Positions 4,956 through 16,205 of a stretch of DNA of 33,553 bases are shown piece by piece. Position 1 is the stretch's first letter. Each line of letters begins with the position of its first letter. The notes under the pieces were generated by a model that did not search any database, was not told the DNA's origin, and worked only from the letters and a program-made list of their open reading frames with translations. The translations under genes were made by a program, and so were the position numbers. This DNA comes from an uncultured bacterium (GTDB lineage: Bacteria > Patescibacteriota > Patescibacteriia > UBA1558 > GWA2-36-10): NCBI GenBank assembly GCA_903855135.1, contig CAINYB010000001.1:66740-100292 (forward strand), given 5' to 3'.

Positions 4956-7871
4956 TTAACTACGTTTAGCAAAAGGGCAAATTTTATTAAAATCACAAGT
5001 CGCGCAAGACCAACCTGGCGTAGCCGTAAAATCTCCTGACAAAATCTTAGCAATAGTTTCTAAAATCCAAAGTTTAGTTTTTTCTATTTCTTTATCGGTA
5101 CCGACAAAAGAAACTGGTGTATTATTACTCAAATAATAAAAAGTTAAATTGCTTACTTTGGTTTGAAAAACTTCTTCAGCTGCTATCTGATAAATCAATA
5201 ACTGTTTTTTATCTTCAAAAGTAATTTTATCATCTTTAGCATTACCAGTTTTGTAATCAATGATCTCCCAAGTATTATTTAGCACATCTACTCTGTCTAG
5301 TACGCCTTTCAAAGAATAATCTTTGACTTTGATATTAAAACCTTTTTCCAAAAACAATGGCACCGGCCAATTGCCTGCAAACTTTTGATAAAACTCTTTC
5401 AAAATTCTTTCTCCGTCTTGGCGATATTTTTCTTTTTCTTCAGCATTGCGATACCAATCATCAATCCAAGACTCTTGGTAAAAATTTAATAACTCTTTTA
5501 AAGTCGGTACTGCTCCACTGCTATCTTCTGTAAATAAACTAGCTTGTTTTTTTTCATTGTTATTAATAATACTTTGAAAAAACTTTTGTAAGGTGGCGTG
5601 CATAGTTTTACCAAAACTAAAGCTAGCCTTGCCTTTGCTTTGCAGTTTTATCACATGCGAATAATAATATTGTCGCGGACAAGTTTCATAAGCTTTAAGC
5701 TGGGAAAAAGAAAAAACTTTAGGGATCGGGTGAATGACTTTTTCTTGGCGACTTTTTATCGTCTCCGGCTCTTTGACAGTATTACTCTCAATGTCTTGGA
5801 CAGCTAGATTCACTTCATTGATAAAACGAGAGGCTTTACGCTCTCTGACTCCGCCATAATCTTTGGCATAAGTGAGATAAGCGGCCAGCTTAGCTCTAGT
5901 CAAAGCCACATAGAACAAACGTCTTTCTTCTTGTAGATGCGCGTCACCTTGAGGCAATTGCTCTTTGATAAACTGCACTGGTAGCTCGATCGGATCTTGT
6001 CTTTCTGTACTAGGGAACTTAAGATGCGCTAAATTGGTGATAAAAACATATTTAAACTCCAAGCCTTTAGAGGCATGGACAGTCATGATCTTGATTGCAT
6101 CTGGTCCAGCTTCAGTATCTATACTCAAAGCACCAGTTTCACCAGCCTCCTGCTCTAGGGACATCATTTGTAAAAATTCCAGTAAACTGCGAGACAAAGT
6201 CTCCTCTTCCCAAGCTCGAACTTTTTTAAAAAACTGTTGTAAAAAATTTAATTGTTCTCTGTTATATTGATTTTCTTCTAAAGTCAAAAGTGTCAAATAG
6301 CCACTTTCTTCTAAATAAGTATAAATCACTTTGGAAACTGGCTCAGTTTTTACTAATTGCGTATGTGAACTAATTTGTGCTAAAAGCTCGGTGATTATTT
6401 TTGTCTGACCCACAGGCAAAGTGATATGACCATGATAATTTTGGCAAGTATAATATAGGCTCCAAGCTTTTTTGTAAGCTAAATGATTTAAGTCAATAAT
6501 AGTTTTGGTATCCAGGTTCACATAGGGTAAAGATAAAATGCGAAACATCGCTGGCGACTCATGATAATTGTCTAACAATTTCAAATAAGCTAAAACATCC
6601 AAAACAATGTCTTGATTATATAAACCTCTGGAGGCTAAAAACTGATGTGGCCAGCCAGCCTTACGCAACATCGAGACAAAACCACTAGCTTGATCATTGG
6701 CCCGCACCAAAATAGCAAAGTCTGACCAAGCTAAATCTTTGTCTTTTTTCTTTAAAGCCAAAATTTCATTTAAAACGCCATCGATTTCTGAATTTTTATC
6801 TGGATAAGATAAAACTTTTACTTCACCAGGATCTTCTAAATGCGCGATTAATTTTTTGTTTAATTTCTTTTTGCCGACTTTCAAAGTCGCTTCTAATCTG
6901 TCAGGATTATTGCCTTGAATAAAACTATAAGCTACGTCCAAAATCTTTTGGCCAGATCTGTAATTGTCTACTAAAAATATTTCTTTTAAATCTGGATAAT
7001 CATGCCTAAAAGTTAGAATATTAGAAACGGCTGCTCCTCGAAAACGATAAATAGACTGATCGTCATCGCCGACTACCATCAGATTATTTTTTGGGGCAGC
7101 TAAAATCTTGATCAATTCATATTGGGCCCAATTGGCGTCTTGAAACTCATCAACTAAAATATATTTAAACTGCTCGCGATATTTAGCTAAAATCTTTGGT
7201 CTAGTTTGTAAAAGTTTTAAAGTATAGTTTATCAAATCACCAAAATCTAAAGCATTTTTTTCTAGTAATAATTGCTGATAGACATGATAAGCGTTAGCTA
7301 GCTCATTGATACGCTTGATTTCTAAATCTTGCTCGGTATTTACATCATCAGAATCTAGTTTTACATTTTGCGCATAAGCTAAATAATCTTCTGGATAAAC
7401 CACTTCATCTTTACAGCGAGAAAAATGTGCAAGTAAAGCGTGAATAAATTTAGTCGGATTACCCAAAGGGCGATAATAATCAAGCTCAAATCTATCGAGA
7501 TTTTCTTTCACTAGCATCCAAGCAGCTGTTTGATTCAAAAGTTTAAACTCATTTGGTAAGCCAATATCTAAAGCATGACTTTTCAAAATCTTTTCCGCAA
7601 AAGCATGAAAAGTACTGATGTACAAATCAGCATAGCCCAAAGGCAAAAGTTTATCGACACGTTCTGCCATCTCCCCGGCCGCTTTATCAGTAAAAGTCAA
7701 AGCCAAAATATTTTCTGCACCGGCCTTTTTTTGGGCAATCAAATAAGCAATCCGTTGGGTAATAACCATAGTTTTACCAGTACCAGCCCCAGCAATCAGC
7801 ATCACTGGCCCCTGGTCGTGCAAAACCGCCTGTTTTTGAGCTTTATTTAATTGTGTTAAGTCTATTGCCAT
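4956..7871 (-). CDS. UvrD/PcrA-type superfamily 1 helicase fused to a C-terminal RecB/Cas4-like PD-(D/E)XK nuclease with Cys cluster
   Basis: 971 aa; Walker A GAGTGKT, VDEFQDAN, GDDDQSIYRFRGA, VALTRAK; nuclease GVLDRVDVLNNTWEIIDYKTG; cysteines CPRQYYY and CATCDFNKIC. Confidence 0.93.
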   Translation of the reverse strand: MAIDLTQLNKAQKQAVLHDQGPVMLIAGAGTGKTMVITQRIAYLIAQKKAGAENILALTFTDKAAGEMAERVDKLLPLGYADLYISTFHAFAEKILKSHALDIGLPNEFKLLNQTAAWMLVKENLDRFELDYYRPLGNPTKFIHALLAHFSRCKDEVVYPEDYLAYAQNVKLDSDDVNTEQDLEIKRINELANAYHVYQQLLLEKNALDFGDLINYTLKLLQTRPKILAKYREQFKYILVDEFQDANWAQYELIKILAAPKNNLMVVGDDDQSIYRFRGAAVSNILTFRHDYPDLKEIFLVDNYRSGQKILDVAYSFIQGNNPDRLEATLKVGKKKLNKKLIAHLEDPGEVKVLSYPDKNSEIDGVLNEILALKKKDKDLAWSDFAILVRANDQASGFVSMLRKAGWPHQFLASRGLYNQDIVLDVLAYLKLLDNYHESPAMFRILSLPYVNLDTKTIIDLNHLAYKKAWSLYYTCQNYHGHITLPVGQTKIITELLAQISSHTQLVKTEPVSKVIYTYLEESGYLTLLTLEENQYNREQLNFLQQFFKKVRAWEEETLSRSLLEFLQMMSLEQEAGETGALSIDTEAGPDAIKIMTVHASKGLEFKYVFITNLAHLKFPSTERQDPIELPVQFIKEQLPQGDAHLQEERRLFYVALTRAKLAAYLTYAKDYGGVRERKASRFINEVNLAVQDIESNTVKEPETIKSRQEKVIHPIPKVFSFSQLKAYETCPRQYYYSHVIKLQSKGKASFSFGKTMHATLQKFFQSIINNNEKKQASLFTEDSSGAVPTLKELLNFYQESWIDDWYRNAEEKEKYRQDGERILKEFYQKFAGNWPVPLFLEKGFNIKVKDYSLKGVLDRVDVLNNTWEIIDYKTGNAKDDKITFEDKKQLLIYQIAAEEVFQTKVSNLTFYYLSNNTPVSFVGTDKEIEKTKLWILETIAKILSGDFTATPGWSCATCDFNKICPFAKRS

Positions 7872-7939: not shown

Positions 7940-7954
7940 CCCACCGAAGGTGGG
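7940..7954. repeat. Compact hairpin upstream of UvrD-like gene
   Basis: CCCACC-GAA-GGTGGG. Confidence 0.85.
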
Positions 7955-7978: not shown

Positions 7979-8007
7979 GAAAAAAGGCGGTGCCCGTAGG
8001 TACCGCC
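7979..8007 (-). terminator. Rho-independent terminator of the 34-aa ORF/carbonic-anhydrase-like unit
   Basis: Reverse strand GGCGGT-ACCTACGGGC-ACCGCC followed by TTTTTTCTTT. Confidence 0.75.
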
Positions 8008-8014
8008 CGTGTGG

Positions 8015-8119
8015 TCAATTGTGCCAAATGTCTTGGTTAAAATCGCCACGCTTGAGCTTGCGCCAAGCAGCCACGATATACAGCAGACACAAAGCTGCCA
8101 CAATGAAACGACCTTCCAT
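8015..8119 (-). CDS. 34-aa single-TM peptide, second gene of a bicistronic unit
   Basis: MEGRFIVAALCLLYIVAAWRKLKRGDFNQDIWHN*; strong SD TAGGAGG overlapping the upstream gene's TAG stop; terminator follows. Not in the ORF track (too short). Confidence 0.6.
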   Translation of the reverse strand: MEGRFIVAALCLLYIVAAWRKLKRGDFNQDIWHN

Positions 8120-8127
8120 GAATCCTC

Positions 8128-8649
8128 CTACAATTTCAAAGCCACACAATGTTCTGGCCCAGCAAAAGGCTGAGTAAAGTCTGACGGACAAAGCAAAATT
8201 GGGTGAATCCTGAGTCCATTATCAGCCACATGCTGAATATTTCTCATCTTCAGACCGTGATACAAATTTGGAGAGTGCAAGATTTCCTGCAAGTGATACT
8301 GGATGGCTCTCTGCAAAATATTGGTACTGTTCCGCAAATGCTCTAAGTGAACATCGCGCTCTGCTTCGGGTCCAGCAAAAGCTTGACTGCCACCATAAGC
8401 ACCACAATCCCAATGATTGCACAAAACAATGTCTTTGACGCCGTGTAAACCAACTGAAACCCGCACAAATTTGTCTATCAGATCTTCTGTCACATGACAA
8501 CCATGATTAATAGTCTTGGCTGCACCTGGACGTGTATAAAGATCAATGGTTTGACCTCCTAGAATTTCGCCAGCAACTTGCATGATCCTGCTCGTCCACC
8601 AACCATCAACACAAGTGATGAGGGCACCGTTGTAAAGTTTATGTGACAT
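8128..8649 (-). CDS. Beta-carbonic-anhydrase-like protein (divergent paralogue)
   Basis: Zn-ligand motifs CVD... and HWDCGAYGG; start corrected to 8649 (MSHKLYNGALITCVDGWW) because of SD AAAGGAGC and a promoter overlapping the track start (8730). Confidence 0.7.
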   Translation of the reverse strand: MSHKLYNGALITCVDGWWTSRIMQVAGEILGGQTIDLYTRPGAAKTINHGCHVTEDLIDKFVRVSVGLHGVKDIVLCNHWDCGAYGGSQAFAGPEAERDVHLEHLRNSTNILQRAIQYHLQEILHSPNLYHGLKMRNIQHVADNGLRIHPILLCPSDFTQPFAGPEHCVALKL

Positions 8650-8702
8650 GATACGCCAGCTCCTTTGTTTTTGACAAGTGATTTTATGTACGAAGCTAGC
8701 AT

Positions 8703-8730
8703 ATTCTACACCAAACACAAAATATGTCAA
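8703..8730 (-). promoter_or_regulatory. Sigma70-like promoter of the carbonic-anhydrase-like/34-aa unit
   Basis: Reverse strand TTGACA-16 bp-TAGAAT. Confidence 0.7.
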
Positions 8731-8753: not shown

Positions 8754-8780
8754 AAACAGCCCCACTTAAAGAGGCTGTTT
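8754..8780 (-). terminator. Rho-independent terminator at end of the ATP synthase operon
   Basis: Reverse strand AAACAGCC-TCTTTAAGTGG-GGCTGTTTTTT. Confidence 0.8.
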
Positions 8781-8790
8781 AACTATATTT

Positions 8791-9240
8791 TTATTCTAAA
8801 ACCGCATACTCTAAGCCTTGCGGTACAACTTTTGAATAAGCCAAAACAATTTCTAAATCAGCTGGTAATTCTTTAGCTAAAATATCTTTAACAGCACGTA
8901 AGTCTTTAGTGTATTGATCTTCTTCTGCTTGTGGCGAAGAAAAAGCTTTACTACCTCCATAACCACCACAATCCCAATGCCAGAGTAATAAAAGTTTTTT
9001 TATGCCGTGCAAACCAAGAGACACGTTAACAATTTTTTCTACTAAAGAAGTTTTAAAACCATTTTGTTTTAGCACTTCTTTAGCGGCACCTGGCCAAGAA
9101 AATAAATCAAAATCTGCATATCCTAAACCTTTTTCAACAAACTCTTGATCAGAACTACGAAAACGAAAATCAATACATTTGATGACCGCTAAAGGACATT
9201 CATGTTTTTTTAAATTATCATTAGGTATTGTATATTTCAT
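8791..9240 (-). CDS. Beta-carbonic-anhydrase-like protein, last gene of the atp operon
   Basis: 149 aa; CIDFR (CxDxR) and HWDCGGYGG (HxxCG) motifs; 12 nt downstream of atpC and upstream of the terminator. Confidence 0.75.
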   Translation of the reverse strand: MKYTIPNDNLKKHECPLAVIKCIDFRFRSSDQEFVEKGLGYADFDLFSWPGAAKEVLKQNGFKTSLVEKIVNVSLGLHGIKKLLLLWHWDCGGYGGSKAFSSPQAEEDQYTKDLRAVKDILAKELPADLEIVLAYSKVVPQGLEYAVLE

Positions 9241-9252
9241 ATTTTTAAAAAA

Positions 9253-9693
9253 TTATTGCAAATTACGTATACCTTTTTGTTTGTATTTTCTCGCTACTTT
9301 CAAACGATTTAATTCTTTTTCTAAAGTGGCTGACAACATCGCAAACTGTTCGCTATCCAGATGCTGTTCTTTTAAGGCTTCTTCAGCACGCTGTTTTGCC
9401 TCTTCAGCTCGTTTTTCATCGATATCAGCAGCATATTCAGCTCGGTCAGCCAAAATAATCACTTCTTCAGGTAAAACCTCGATAAAACCACCAAAAACCG
9501 CCATTAAGCTCTCTGCTTTATTTTGGTGCTTTACTATAATCTCTCCTGGGGCCAACTGGCTAATAAGTGGCAAATGATGAGGCAAAATGGTGATTTGGCC
9601 AGAAGTCGTAGAAACAGATAGTTGGTTGACCTCATCGGTCAAAACTACCTTTTCTGGAGTGACTATTTTTAGCTTAAATTTGTCCATATACAA
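9253..9693 (-). CDS. atpC: F-type ATP synthase epsilon subunit
   Basis: MDKFKLKIVTPEKVVLTDEVNQLSVSTTSGQITILPHHLPLISQLAPGEI; start may be 9687. Confidence 0.93.
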   Translation of the reverse strand: MYMDKFKLKIVTPEKVVLTDEVNQLSVSTTSGQITILPHHLPLISQLAPGEIIVKHQNKAESLMAVFGGFIEVLPEEVIILADRAEYAADIDEKRAEEAKQRAEEALKEQHLDSEQFAMLSATLEKELNRLKVARKYKQKGIRNLQ

Positions 9694-9717
9694 AGCTTGA
9701 ATATCTTAATCCTTATT

Positions 9718-12049
<2,332 letters not shown>

Positions 12050-12062
12050 ATATTATTTGCGT

Positions 12063-12162
12063 GTCATGCTGAATTTATTTCAGCATCTTTTAAACTATTT
12101 TTTAGATCCTGAAACTAGTTCTCCTCGAGTCTGAGCGATCTCGGAGTCGAAGACAGGATGAC
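12063..12162. repeat. About 100-bp MITE/REP-like element between atpA and atpG
   Basis: Terminal GTCATGCTG(12063-12071) / CAGGATGAC(12154-12162) inverted repeats; internal ATGCTGAA-TTTAT-TTCAGCAT and imperfect CTCGAG/CTCGGAG hairpins. Confidence 0.75.
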
Positions 12163-12172
12163 GAGTTTTAAA

Positions 12173-13693
12173 TTACTCTGTTTTAATAAAGTTAGCAGCT
12201 ACATCTTCAATCATCTTCTGCAAAACTTTTTCAATGTCTTCTGTCAAAGTACCTTCAGTTTCAATATGTTTCATAAAAGATTGACCATCATTATCCAAAG
12301 TGCTAAATAATTCTTTTTCAAATTTAGCTAAATCTTTTACTTCTATTTTATCCGTGTAGCCGTTGTTCACTGCATAAATGACAGCTACTTGTTTAGCCAC
12401 ACTTAAAGGCACAAATTGTGGCTGTTTCAAAATTTCTGTAATTCTTGCCCCTCTGTTTAACTGTTGTTTAGTAGCTTCATCAAGGTCAGAACCAAATTGA
12501 GCAAAAGCTTCTAGCTCACGATATTGAGCTAAAGATAATTTGAGTTTACCGGCTACTTTTTTCATAGCTTTGATCTGCGCCGCTGAACCGACACGAGAAA
12601 CTGACAAGCCAGCGTTTAAAGCTGGGCGCACACCTTTATAAAACAAATCAGTTTCTAAGAAAATCTGACCATCAGTAATAGAAATGACGTTAGTTGGAAT
12701 ATATGCGGAAATATCACCAGCTTGGGTCTCAATAATTGGCAAAGAAGTCAAAGAACCACCACCAAGCTCAGCTGACATCTTAGCAGAACGCTCTAGCAGA
12801 CGTGAGTGTAGATAAAAGACATCACCTGGATAAGCTTCACGTCCTGGTGGGCGGCGTAAGAGTAAAGAAATCTGACGATAAGCCACGGCGTGCTTTGATA
12901 AATCATCATAAATAACTAACACATCTTTACCTTGATCCATGAAATATTCACCCATAGCTGTACCTGAGTAAGGAGCGATATAAGACAAAGAAGCTGATTG
13001 TGAAGCGCCAGCTAAAACTACAGTGGTATAGTCCATAGCTCCAGTCTCTTGCAATTTAGCAACGATACGAGCAATCTTTGATTCTTTTTGGCCAATAGCG
13101 ACATAAATACAAATAACATCTTTGCCTTTTTGGTTGATGATAGTGTCAATTGCTAAAGCTGTTTTTCCAGTTTGACGGTCGCCAATAATAAGTTCACGTT
13201 GACCCTTACCGATAGGGATAATAGAATCGATCACTTTGATACCGGTTTGTAATGGCTGTGTCACAGCTTGACGAGTGATAACACCAGGAGCGATCTTTTC
13301 TACTGGATAAAAATCTTTAGTTTTGATGGCGCCCTGACCGTCTAAAGGCTCACCGAGTGGATTTACTACTCTGCCGATCACTACTTCACCCACTGGTACT
13401 TGTAAAATCTTATTGGTACGGCGGACAAGGTCACCCTCTTTTAAAGTCTGATATTCACCTAAAATAATAGCGCCAACAGAAAATTCTTCTAAGTTCAAAA
13501 CCACACCATAGATTTTTTCACCTTTGGCGTTTTCAAACTCTAACATTTCTGAAGACATCACATCAGCTAAACCAGAAATTTTGGCAATACCATCGCCAAT
13601 TTCGATCACTTCACCAACTGACTCTTCTTTGGTTTCGCTTTGAAAATTTTCTAATTGTTTCTGTAAATTTTTGACTAGATAATCGTAAGACAT
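12173..13693 (-). CDS. atpA: F-type ATP synthase alpha subunit
   Basis: [44 protein letters not shown]. Confidence 0.98.
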
Positions 13694-13704
13694 AAACGTA
13701 TTAT

Positions 13705-14109
13705 TTAATTGACTAAAGATTTATTTAAATTATTGATTTGTTTTTTAAGAGATAGATCTAAAACTTTATCTTGATACTTTATTTTCATACCGCCAAGTAG
13801 CTGCTCATCTATGGTTTCTGTGATCTCTAATGTTTGCGTGGATGTTTGCTGTAAATATTTGGTCGCTTCTGTGACACTATGTTTATCTAAAGCACGAGCA
13901 GAAACAATCTCGACAGCTAAAATATTTTTGTCTGCTTGCTCTAAAGCTTTTAGCTCCGCTAAAATCTCCCCCAATAATGGCAAAAAATGATGCTGTTTTA
14001 AATAAGCAACAAAATTATCGACAATACTTTCTGTCTCTTTCTTATTTTTATTAACTAAAGCTTGATAAACAGCTTTGGCTAAAATTTTTACTTGCGCTTT
14101 ATTTTTCAT
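13705..14109 (-). CDS. atpH: F-type ATP synthase delta subunit
   Basis: 134 aa; C-terminal [33 protein letters not shown]; operon position. Confidence 0.88.
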
Positions 14110-14605
14110 TTTTTTTCAAATCAGCTAAAGTTTGGTGAATATATTTTTTATCTATTTCTTGACTCACACTTTTGGATAAAACTTTGGTCAAACTTGTTTG
14201 TAATAAATTCGCAAACTCTTGTTTTGCCTCTACAAACATTTTTTCTTTTTCTTGTTCAATATGAAGTTTTGCTTTGTTCACAACCTGCTCCACCTCAAGC
14301 TTTGCCTTAGCTAAAGACTCTTGGCGATTTAATTCTGCTTGGCTATTGGCTTTTTCTAAAATCAACATGGATTCTTTTTTGGCTTCTTGTAGCTTAGCTT
14401 TAACATCTTTTTCTACTGCTTCTAAACGATCAGCAGCTGATTTCGCATCATCTAAACCTTGGCTAATTTCTTTATTTCTGGCTTCCATGGTCTTTAATAA
14501 TGGCTTAATCGCAAAGTGCCATAAAACAAAGAAAACAATAGCAAAGTTAAAAATCTGTGCTAGCATTAACTTCCAATTGACTCCAAATAAATTTAAAATT
14601 TCCAT
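14099..14605 (-). CDS. atpF: F-type ATP synthase b subunit
   Basis: N-terminal TM then long charged coiled coil; operon position. Confidence 0.92.
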   Translation of the reverse strand: MEILNLFGVNWKLMLAQIFNFAIVFFVLWHFAIKPLLKTMEARNKEISQGLDDAKSAADRLEAVEKDVKAKLQEAKKESMLILEKANSQAELNRQESLAKAKLEVEQVVNKAKLHIEQEKEKMFVEAKQEFANLLQTSLTKVLSKSVSQEIDKKYIHQTLADLKKNEK

Positions 14606-14680
14606 ATAAATAATTTTAATACTCTATTCTGACTTAAAACGCTTTCTGACGGCTATTTTAAGTCAGTAAGAATGCTCAAA

Positions 14681-14929
<249 letters not shown>

Positions 14930-15014
14930 TTAATTTTTTGTTTTTAGTCGACAAATTATTTTTTAATTAATACTTAATGTTTGGCTACTTAAATAAACAA
15001 ACAACAAATATCAA

Positions 15015-15902
15015 TTATGCATGAGCATGTTCAGAGTCATGAGAAGTAGAAGCAATAGTGAAATAAACCAAAGTCAAAACTGCGAAAATCAAAGCTTGAA
15101 TCACACCAACAATCACCTCTAAAAACATAAAAGGCAAAGGCACGCCCCAGGCTACCATGGCCGAAATAGAAGAAAGCAAAACTTCGCCGGCAAAAACATT
15201 ACCAAACAAACGGAAAGAAAGTGAAGCGATTTTTGCTACTTCAGAAATGATTTCTATCAAACCCACAAAAAAAGTAATGGGATTTACTAAAATAATAGTT
15301 GGTTCTTTGAAAACTTTTTTAGGTATCTCAAGTAAGGCTTTGATATTGATAAACTTATTAAAATACTCCCAAAGACCGACGGACATCACACCAAAAATAT
15401 TAGCCCCCACAACAGCAAAAATACCTAAAGCCAGAGTAGTATTTAAATCAGCGGTACCACCACGAAAAATATGATGGCCGTCAAAACTCACTGAACCAAT
15501 GCCCGGCACTAAACCTAGCCAATTATTTACCAAGACAAAGACAAAAATAGTAAAGACAATCGGAAAAGCTTTTTTGCTTTTCTCTCTATCATTAGTCACC
15601 AAGTCCATCATATCTAAAGCTCCTTCAACTACAATTTCTACGATACTTTGAAAAGCTGAAGGAATTCTTTTGGTTTTTTTACGAATAACTAAAGAAAGTA
15701 AAATAATAAAAAACACTGCCACCCAAGAGGTAATCAGTGAATTGGTTACAGGAAAAGATCCAATATGAAAAACTGGCTCAGCAAATAAAGTAATCTCGTG
15801 AGATTCTTTTGCTTCATGCTCAACTGCAGCTTCTGTATCATGACCAGTCAAGCCTTCCATGTTTTCTATATTCAGATTGGGATTAGTTTCTGTTACGCTC
15901 AT
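15015..15902 (-). CDS. atpB: F-type ATP synthase a subunit
   Basis: KIASLSFRLFGNVFAGEVLL...EVIVGVIQALIFAVLTLVYF. Confidence 0.96.
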   Translation of the reverse strand: MSVTETNPNLNIENMEGLTGHDTEAAVEHEAKESHEITLFAEPVFHIGSFPVTNSLITSWVAVFFIILLSLVIRKKTKRIPSAFQSIVEIVVEGALDMMDLVTNDREKSKKAFPIVFTIFVFVLVNNWLGLVPGIGSVSFDGHHIFRGGTADLNTTLALGIFAVVGANIFGVMSVGLWEYFNKFINIKALLEIPKKVFKEPTIILVNPITFFVGLIEIISEVAKIASLSFRLFGNVFAGEVLLSSISAMVAWGVPLPFMFLEVIVGVIQALIFAVLTLVYFTIASTSHDSEHAHA

Positions 15903-16183
15903 TATAATTTATTTTTCTCGTCACAATTATCCTTTGTCTTTGTTTTATTTATCTGATTTAAATATTTGACTCCCAAAACACCGATACTGACACAAGAAAC
16001 GATAAAGGCGACTAAAGTCAGAATAAAGAAATACAGATGGCCGGTTTGGTACTTTTGGTCCAAAAATCTGCCGACAAATAAAGCGATTAAAACTGGAAAG
16101 GCAATTGCTCCACTCATTTGAGCAAAAACATTTAGTCCTAAACGCCATAAATCTTTATCTTGGCTGTTTTTGAAATCAAACAT
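15902..16183 (-). CDS. AtpZ/AtpI-like membrane protein heading the atp operon
   Basis: Two TM segments, ...IALFVGRFLDQKYQTGHLYFFILTLVAFIVSCVSIGVL; start moved from 16204 to 16183 because the -10 lies 1 nt from the track start. Confidence 0.7.
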   Translation of the reverse strand: MFDFKNSQDKDLWRLGLNVFAQMSGAIAFPVLIALFVGRFLDQKYQTGHLYFFILTLVAFIVSCVSIGVLGVKYLNQINKTKTKDNCDEKNKL

Positions 16184-16205
16184 TTTTAAAAAGAATAGCG
16201 CCATC

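Follow-up and report, generated by a model that had tools for sequence, protein, structure and literature searches.

A carbonic anhydrase-like gene lacking the catalytic arginine beside the ATP synthase operon in a Patescibacteria genome

Patescibacteria mostly have no respiratory chains, which raises the question of how they run an F-type ATP synthase. In the genome of an uncultured member of this phylum, a small GC-rich gene unit lies between the atp operon and a helicase gene, and encodes a carbonic anhydrase (CA)-like protein, CA1, in which the arginine of the catalytic dyad is missing. A second protein of the same family, CA2, with the expected catalytic motifs, is encoded immediately upstream. 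Here, we ask what such a gene is, where it came from, and what it may do next to CA2 and the ATP synthase. The window is the whole stretch of 33,553 nucleotides analysed (contig CAINYB010000001.1), and positions refer to it.

Structure and composition of the CA1 unit

The F-type ATP synthase operon, atpB-E-F-H-A-G-D-C, occupies positions 9253..15902 of the minus strand. It was recognized from its ORFs and from Pfam matches for subunit c and ATPase_gene1, the remaining subunit names being assigned from sequence and gene order; an AtpI-like gene (15902-16204) lies beside it. The terminal gene of the operon is CA2 (8791..9240, minus strand), whose 149-aa Pro_CA_2 product retains both the CxDxR and the HxxC motif. 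It is followed on the same strand by a terminator with a 10-bp stem and a T tail (8754..8780). As the atp-CA2 operon is terminated at 8780-8754, CA1 starts a separate transcription unit.

This unit, also on the minus strand, begins with a sigma-70-type promoter at 8703..8730, comprised of the −35 box TTGACA (8730-8725), a 16-nt spacer, and the −10 box TAGAAT (8708-8703). It matches 11 of 12 consensus positions and is the promoter described in the original prediction. The 5′ leader of ~50 nt (8650..8702, minus strand) carries the Shine-Dalgarno sequence (SD) AAAGGAGC at 8659-8666, before the ATG at 8649; it matched no Rfam family, and hence no riboswitch or known RNA was found there. CA1 itself (8128..8649, minus strand) encodes a 173-aa beta-CA-like Pro_CA_2 paralogue, and is followed by a 34-aa ORF, MEGRFIVAALCLLYIVAAWRKLKRGDFNQDIWHN (8015..8119, minus strand), whose SD AGGAGG (8124-8129) overlaps the CA1 stop codon. 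The unit ends in an intrinsic terminator (7980..8008, minus strand), a hairpin at 8008-7986 followed by T6 (−16.1 kcal/mol, z −4.4). With the promoter, SD, and terminator all located in the sequence, the description of a self-contained unit between the UvrD gene and the atp operon proved accurate. CA1 of a related genome, G002, is likewise followed by a GGCGGT...ACCGCC-T6 hairpin equivalent to the CA1 terminator of the window. The right-hand landmark of the locus is a gene for a UvrD/PcrA-type helicase (4956..7871, minus strand; named from its sequence and from the original prediction), and this gene adjoins CA2 or CA1 in relatives too. A further hairpin, CCCACCTTCGGTGGG, whose loop contains TTCG, lies between the CA1 terminator and uvrD (7940-7954, minus strand).

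The unit had been described as richer in GC than its surroundings and as using canonical SDs unlike its neighbours. Both observations hold against background statistics from a sample of ~186 kb of the genome. The GC content of CA1 is 0.443 (GC3 0.40), compared to 0.329 (GC3 0.16) in CA2 and to a mean of 0.349 ± 0.046 in 189 genes sampled from this genome, six of which have at least the GC content of CA1; its composition hence differs from the genome mean. A strict SD precedes four of 165 sampled ATG genes, CA1 being one of these, and on both strands of the ~186 kb scanned, the only AGGAGG-N3-9-ATG that opens a frame of at least 30 codons is that of the 34-aa ORF. CA1 is not the only such gene in the genome, where GC-rich genes led by an SD and a near-consensus sigma-70 promoter form a class that includes, for instance, G000:C7:7307-8371 (L122) and G000:C6:1140-2465 (L121). 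SDs are found at six of seven ORFs of the window genome with GC3 of at least 0.38 versus 15 of 165 other ORFs. The TTGACA-16-TAGAAT promoter of CA1 is shared by a TrpS-like ORF, whose leader measures ~120 nt. High expression was rejected as the source of the high GC3 of CA1, as EF-Tu, SD-led too, has GC3 of only 0.245.

The 34-aa ORF encodes one short hydrophobic stretch, FIVAALCLLYIVAAW, and then a basic patch; a membrane peptide is a plausible product. Given its SD and position, the ORF is arguably translated. A search of 46 genomes yielded no homologues of the peptide, as the weak hits either fell within other proteins or did not match the reading frame, and no such peptide follows CA1 in G002, G013, G006, or G003, where the downstream DNA is present. 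A conserved operon of CA1 and the 34-aa peptide was rejected on these grounds. Membership in the DLW-39 family (NF038356, NCBIfam) was rejected as well, the score of 17.3 bits being below the 24-bit cut-off. As judged from sequence, the peptide is best called an orphan. Of the original prediction, the bicistronic pairing stands in the window, where the SD lies over the CA1 stop codon, but has so far been seen in this genome only; the lack of detected homologues weakens this part of the prediction.

Two paralogues of the Pro_CA_2 family and their active sites

Both proteins exceed the curated 30-bit cut-off of the PF20393 (Pro_CA_2) profile, CA1 with 41.2 bits (E 2.2e-10) and CA2 with 43.5 bits (E 4.4e-11), and their genes are the only two PF20393 genes in the window genome. 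They are 40% identical over 116 aa (BLASTP, E 2e-30). Together with the shared family match, this confirms the claim that CA1 and the 8791-9240 protein are paralogues. The family is described as ‘putative carbonic anhydrase’, and CA1 departs from it by the loss of the CxDxR arginine and by a longer C-terminus.

In the alignment, the Cys-His-Cys zinc ligands are C13, H79, and C82 in CA1 and C22, H88, and C91 in CA2. The motifs of CA2, CIDFR and HWDC, conform to CxDxR and HxxC. CA1 has CVDGW and HWDC: Asp15 is kept, while the dyad Arg is replaced by Trp17, so that CA1 lacks the catalytic Asp-Arg dyad found in CA2. This agrees with the earlier reading of CA1 as a protein with preserved zinc ligands and a broken dyad.

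The AF2 monomer models have pLDDT of 94.6 (CA1) and 92.2 (CA2). The best Foldseek matches in PDB are beta-CAs for both proteins with probability 1.00, although the TM-scores are only 0.41 for CA1 and 0.55 for CA2. All top matches of CA1 are beta-CAs, and the best match of CA2 is the beta-CA TvaCA1 (the TM-score of 0.55). The confident CA1 model contains an extra helix and strands, and the clade to which CA1 belongs (see below) has a clade-specific C-terminal extension of ~25 residues with a common pattern near P-x-D. CA1 and CA2 share with beta-CAs such as Rv1284, Coccomyxa CA, and TvaCA1 the Cys/His/Cys zinc motif and the Asp, and their predicted fold is probably of the same type, but they are smaller than most beta-CAs, the TM-scores are only 0.41–0.55, and CA1 additionally lacks the dyad.

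The role of the Asp-Arg dyad of beta-CAs is to hold the Asp in the orientation needed for catalysis, and the active-site channel is formed by both chains of the dimer (PMC3230598). In Coccomyxa CA, Leu-93′ and His-92′, 10–11 positions before the zinc His, line the active site of the partner chain (PMC3230598). Changing the dyad residues to Ala impaired DabA2 (PMC13144422).

We compared 70 Pro_CA_2 sequences with the relevant alignment columns. The great majority retain CxDxR and HxxC. The Arg is missing in four sequences, all of them second copies (with W, L, D, and D at this site), three from the CA1 clade (W, L, D) and one from the unrelated genome G386 (CFDPD). Hence, the Arg is lost in four of nine second copies and in none of 61 other sequences (Fisher p 1.4e-4, shared ancestry being ignored). 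Outside this set, two single-copy genes, in G146 (CVDSP) and G353 (CSDRD), have no Arg either; the loss of the dyad is therefore strongly but not strictly tied to second copies. Moreover, three of the six clade members, from G013, G003, and G014, keep CxDxR, and so the CA1 class need not be inactive. The zinc ligands and the Asp are present in all six. Nearly all of the 70 sequences retain the zinc ligands and a His located 10 residues before the zinc His. Judging by the spacing, this His may correspond to the His-92′/Leu-93′ site of Coccomyxa CA, and its retention is as expected of a copy that is catalytically weak but continues to act as a partner in the dimer.

In several relatives, CA2 itself has changed. 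In G005 (98% complete; L048 3400-4300 with flanks; L192), the gene order is rmuC-CA2-uvrD, and the atp operon, which in the window separates rmuC from CA2, is gone as a whole. The F-type a subunit was not found in this genome, and V/A-type A and B subunits, encoded elsewhere in it, are its sole relatives of AtpD. CA2 of G005 has lost two of the three zinc ligands (H to N and C to S), yet is ~70% identical to CA2 of the window. In G016, a congener of G005, the F-type operon is kept and CA2 is intact. This one event suggests that the CA chemistry may matter only when the F-type enzyme is present. On the other hand, in CA2 of G002 (L033 5681-6103), the active-site loop around HxxC is deleted while the remainder is well conserved and the atp operon is intact, and in CA2 of G017, the Asp is changed to Asn, the F-type operon being kept. 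Such damage despite an intact operon means that selection may act on something other than CO2 hydration. In G002, the dyad-broken CA1 is ~2 kb from the HxxC-deleted CA2, and both copies look catalytically damaged.

Second copies and linkage to rotary ATPases in related genomes

Second copies similar to CA1 were found in seven of ~18 loci of the family, the window included, and only where CA2 is present. They lie between CA2 and uvrD or slightly away. In all seven genomes, the GC content of the second copy exceeds that of its CA2 by 8 to 18 points, and all seven have a near-consensus promoter (10–12 of 12 positions) 45–132 nt upstream of the start, as well as a strong SD. With GC-rich, promoter- and SD-led copies at the same locus of six other genomes, the distinct composition noted in the original prediction does not mark a recent foreign insertion.

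The original prediction left the choice between duplication and horizontal acquisition to phylogeny. Six of the seven copies are monophyletic (support 99/99), their clade being next to that of CA2 among the Pro_CA_2 sequences of the same order. In the best trees, the seventh copy, from G016, has a long branch and groups with CA2, so that it may have arisen by a separate duplication. As these trees set the G016 copy apart, a common origin of the seven was not accepted, yet a single clade is not rejected either (AU p = 0.31). As CA1 and CA2 belong to one order-level clade, the objection that the paralogues might not be sisters is moot. A recent one-off foreign insertion as the sole cause of the composition was rejected, given the conserved locus, the same style, and the clade in other genomes; an ancient duplication fits the sequence data better. 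We gave no weight to the absence of CA1 from G001, a genome of the same genus, as atpC and the uvrD orthologue are also missing there. The search for related loci with CA1 alone as a query gave no match, nor did the search for CA1 relatives in phages and IMG/VR viral sequences.

In the G003–G014 comparison, a pair that retains the Arg, dyad-broken members offering no close pair, omega is 0.152 for CA1, 0.025 for CA2, and 0.032 for AtpD. CA1 thus evolves several times faster, yet is constrained.

CA2, originally described simply as the adjacent protein, is indeed adjacent, but in nearly all relatives it also closes the atp operon: the order atpC-CA2-uvrD is seen in nearly all complete loci of the family (relatives of the Komeilibacteria group). 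We then considered a phylum-wide sample of 380 genomes, 49 of which have Pro_CA_2; in 46 genomes outside the family of the window, the gene was re-found with its flanks. Genes of F- or V/A-type ATPases lie within 2.5 kb of Pro_CA_2 in 25 of these 46 genomes, while the chance expectation is ~1% (13 kb in ~1 Mb), that is, less than one genome. No atp linkage was seen in the other 21, several of which have the gene at contig ends. The arrangements differ, Pro_CA_2 being located after atpC, before atpB, or in divergent or convergent orientation. In G180 (L130) and G137 (L131), the gene is 0.8–0.9 kb after V/A-type ATPase subunit genes, and so the linkage extends beyond F-type enzymes. Tandem Pro_CA_2 pairs beside atp genes recur in G386, G281, and G066; the odd copies in G386 and G281 are GC-rich too (0.55 and 0.50, respectively), and the one in G386 has a strong SD. 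A separate subgroup of five sequences (L125-L129, from G067, G318, G173, G360, and G376) is marked by CMDGR or CIDGR together with GHxxCA(G/A) and lacks neighbouring atp genes; this CMDGR/HxxCAGN subgroup scores best against the Pfam model.

Possible roles of the CA1–CA2 pair

We tentatively favour a reading in which CA2 is an ATP-synthase-linked CA and CA1 its catalytically impaired partner or regulatory subunit, although this is far from secure. In the mechanism that we infer, CA1 would have arisen as an ancient duplicate of CA2, the beta-CA-like protein ending the atp operon, and its own promoter, SD, and terminator would allow its dose to be set apart from that of the operon. CA1 keeps the zinc ligands and probably the beta-CA fold, with the Arg of the dyad gone in the window genome. 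CA2 would interconvert CO2 and HCO3−/H+ close to the F1Fo ATPase on its cytosolic side. These bacteria are presumably fermenters, and their ATPase probably works as an outward proton pump. CA1 may pair or compete with CA2 as a slow subunit that binds zinc and possibly senses bicarbonate, so that the CA activity would be lowered or tuned. The idea of pairing follows from beta-CAs being dimers in which both chains contribute residues to the active sites. Should the 34-aa peptide be translated, it would represent a membrane add-on of this lineage. The structure of the locus, the paralogy, the clade, the constraint, the loss of the dyad, and the atp linkage are seen in the data, while the activity of CA2, a hetero-oligomer, regulation, and the role in proton handling belong to the proposed mechanism.

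Several other explanations should be weighed against this one. CA1 could be an active specialized enzyme, acting on another substrate such as COS or CS2, which are substrates of known beta-CA-related hydrolases, or hydrating CO2 with a rewired site, the extended C-terminus shaping the pocket. The zinc ligands and Asp retained throughout the clade agree with this, as do the clade-specific extension and the confident model with its additional elements, but the varying residue at the Arg site (W, L, or D, depending on the member) argues against one new common chemistry, and we consider a specialized enzyme unlikely, though deserving attention. It is rather unlikely that CA1 came in by horizontal transfer as an accessory cassette, with the GC content, SD, and promoter style stemming from a donor or from an exchanged pool of single genes, and with little host-specific function. 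GC and GC3 well above the genome level would be explained in this way, as would the other GC-rich, SD-led genes with the identical promoter of the TrpS-like ORF among them, and the similar style of second copies in unrelated lineages such as G386. However, the position next to CA2 is repeated in six other genomes, six copies form one clade within the order's own group, and no match was seen in phages or viral contigs; while acquisition retains some weight, the fixed locus and the clade indicate long residence of CA1.

That neither protein is mainly a CA, Pro_CA_2 being a structural or regulatory factor of rotary ATPases with dispensable catalytic residues, appears improbable to us. It would account for the loss of HxxC (G002) and of the Asp (G017) in CA2 next to intact atp operons, and for the linkage to F- and V/A-type enzymes alike, but not for the retention of CxDxR and HxxC in most of the 70 sequences, nor for the zinc-site loss in G005 coinciding with that of the F-type enzyme. 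Least probable in our view is a decaying duplicate heading to a pseudogene: long branches, repeated loss of the Arg, and patchy presence could be signs of decay, but the open frame, promoter, SD, and terminator are retained in seven genomes, the fold is confidently predicted, the zinc ligands persist at ~60% divergence, and the omega of the G003/G014 pair indicates constraint.

The preferred reading, an ATP-synthase-linked CA with an impaired partner, has some parallels among known systems. The tandem beta-CA of Porphyridium purpureum is comprised of two homologous CA units acting as a pair; in this protein (1ddz, one of the Foldseek matches), the halves are fused and both are catalytic, whereas here the genes are separate and one product is dyad-broken. 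The CA-atp locus can also be likened to DAB2 (DabA2/DabB2), where a beta-CA-type site is tied to the proton-motive force and driven by the membrane potential (PMC13144422). However, DAB2 is a complex embedded in the membrane and includes a proton channel subunit of its own, while in our case a soluble CA-like protein is linked to a rotary ATPase by gene order, and no DabB-like gene is present within the locus. Our literature search, with scant coverage of subscription papers, retrieved nothing on PF20393, on CA genes in Patescibacteria atp operons, or on dyad-broken CA twins there. The fold family is already known, and with such coverage, the absence of a published CA-atp linkage from this search is weak evidence of novelty.

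In a broader and more speculative form, which we regard as unlikely but worth stating, the Pro_CA_2 CA of Patescibacteria would be an accessory of rotary ATPases, and an adjacent, dyad-broken pseudoenzyme regulator with a separate promoter would have evolved independently in several lineages, yielding a proton/bicarbonate feedback module for minimal fermentative energy metabolism. The recurrence of a CA beside rotary ATPases and the loss of its zinc site in the one F-type-less relative examined point to a direct link between CO2/bicarbonate chemistry and the proton cycle, and the recurrent dyad-broken twin offers a minimal-genome setting in which regulation of an enzyme by its own pseudoenzyme derivative can be tested.
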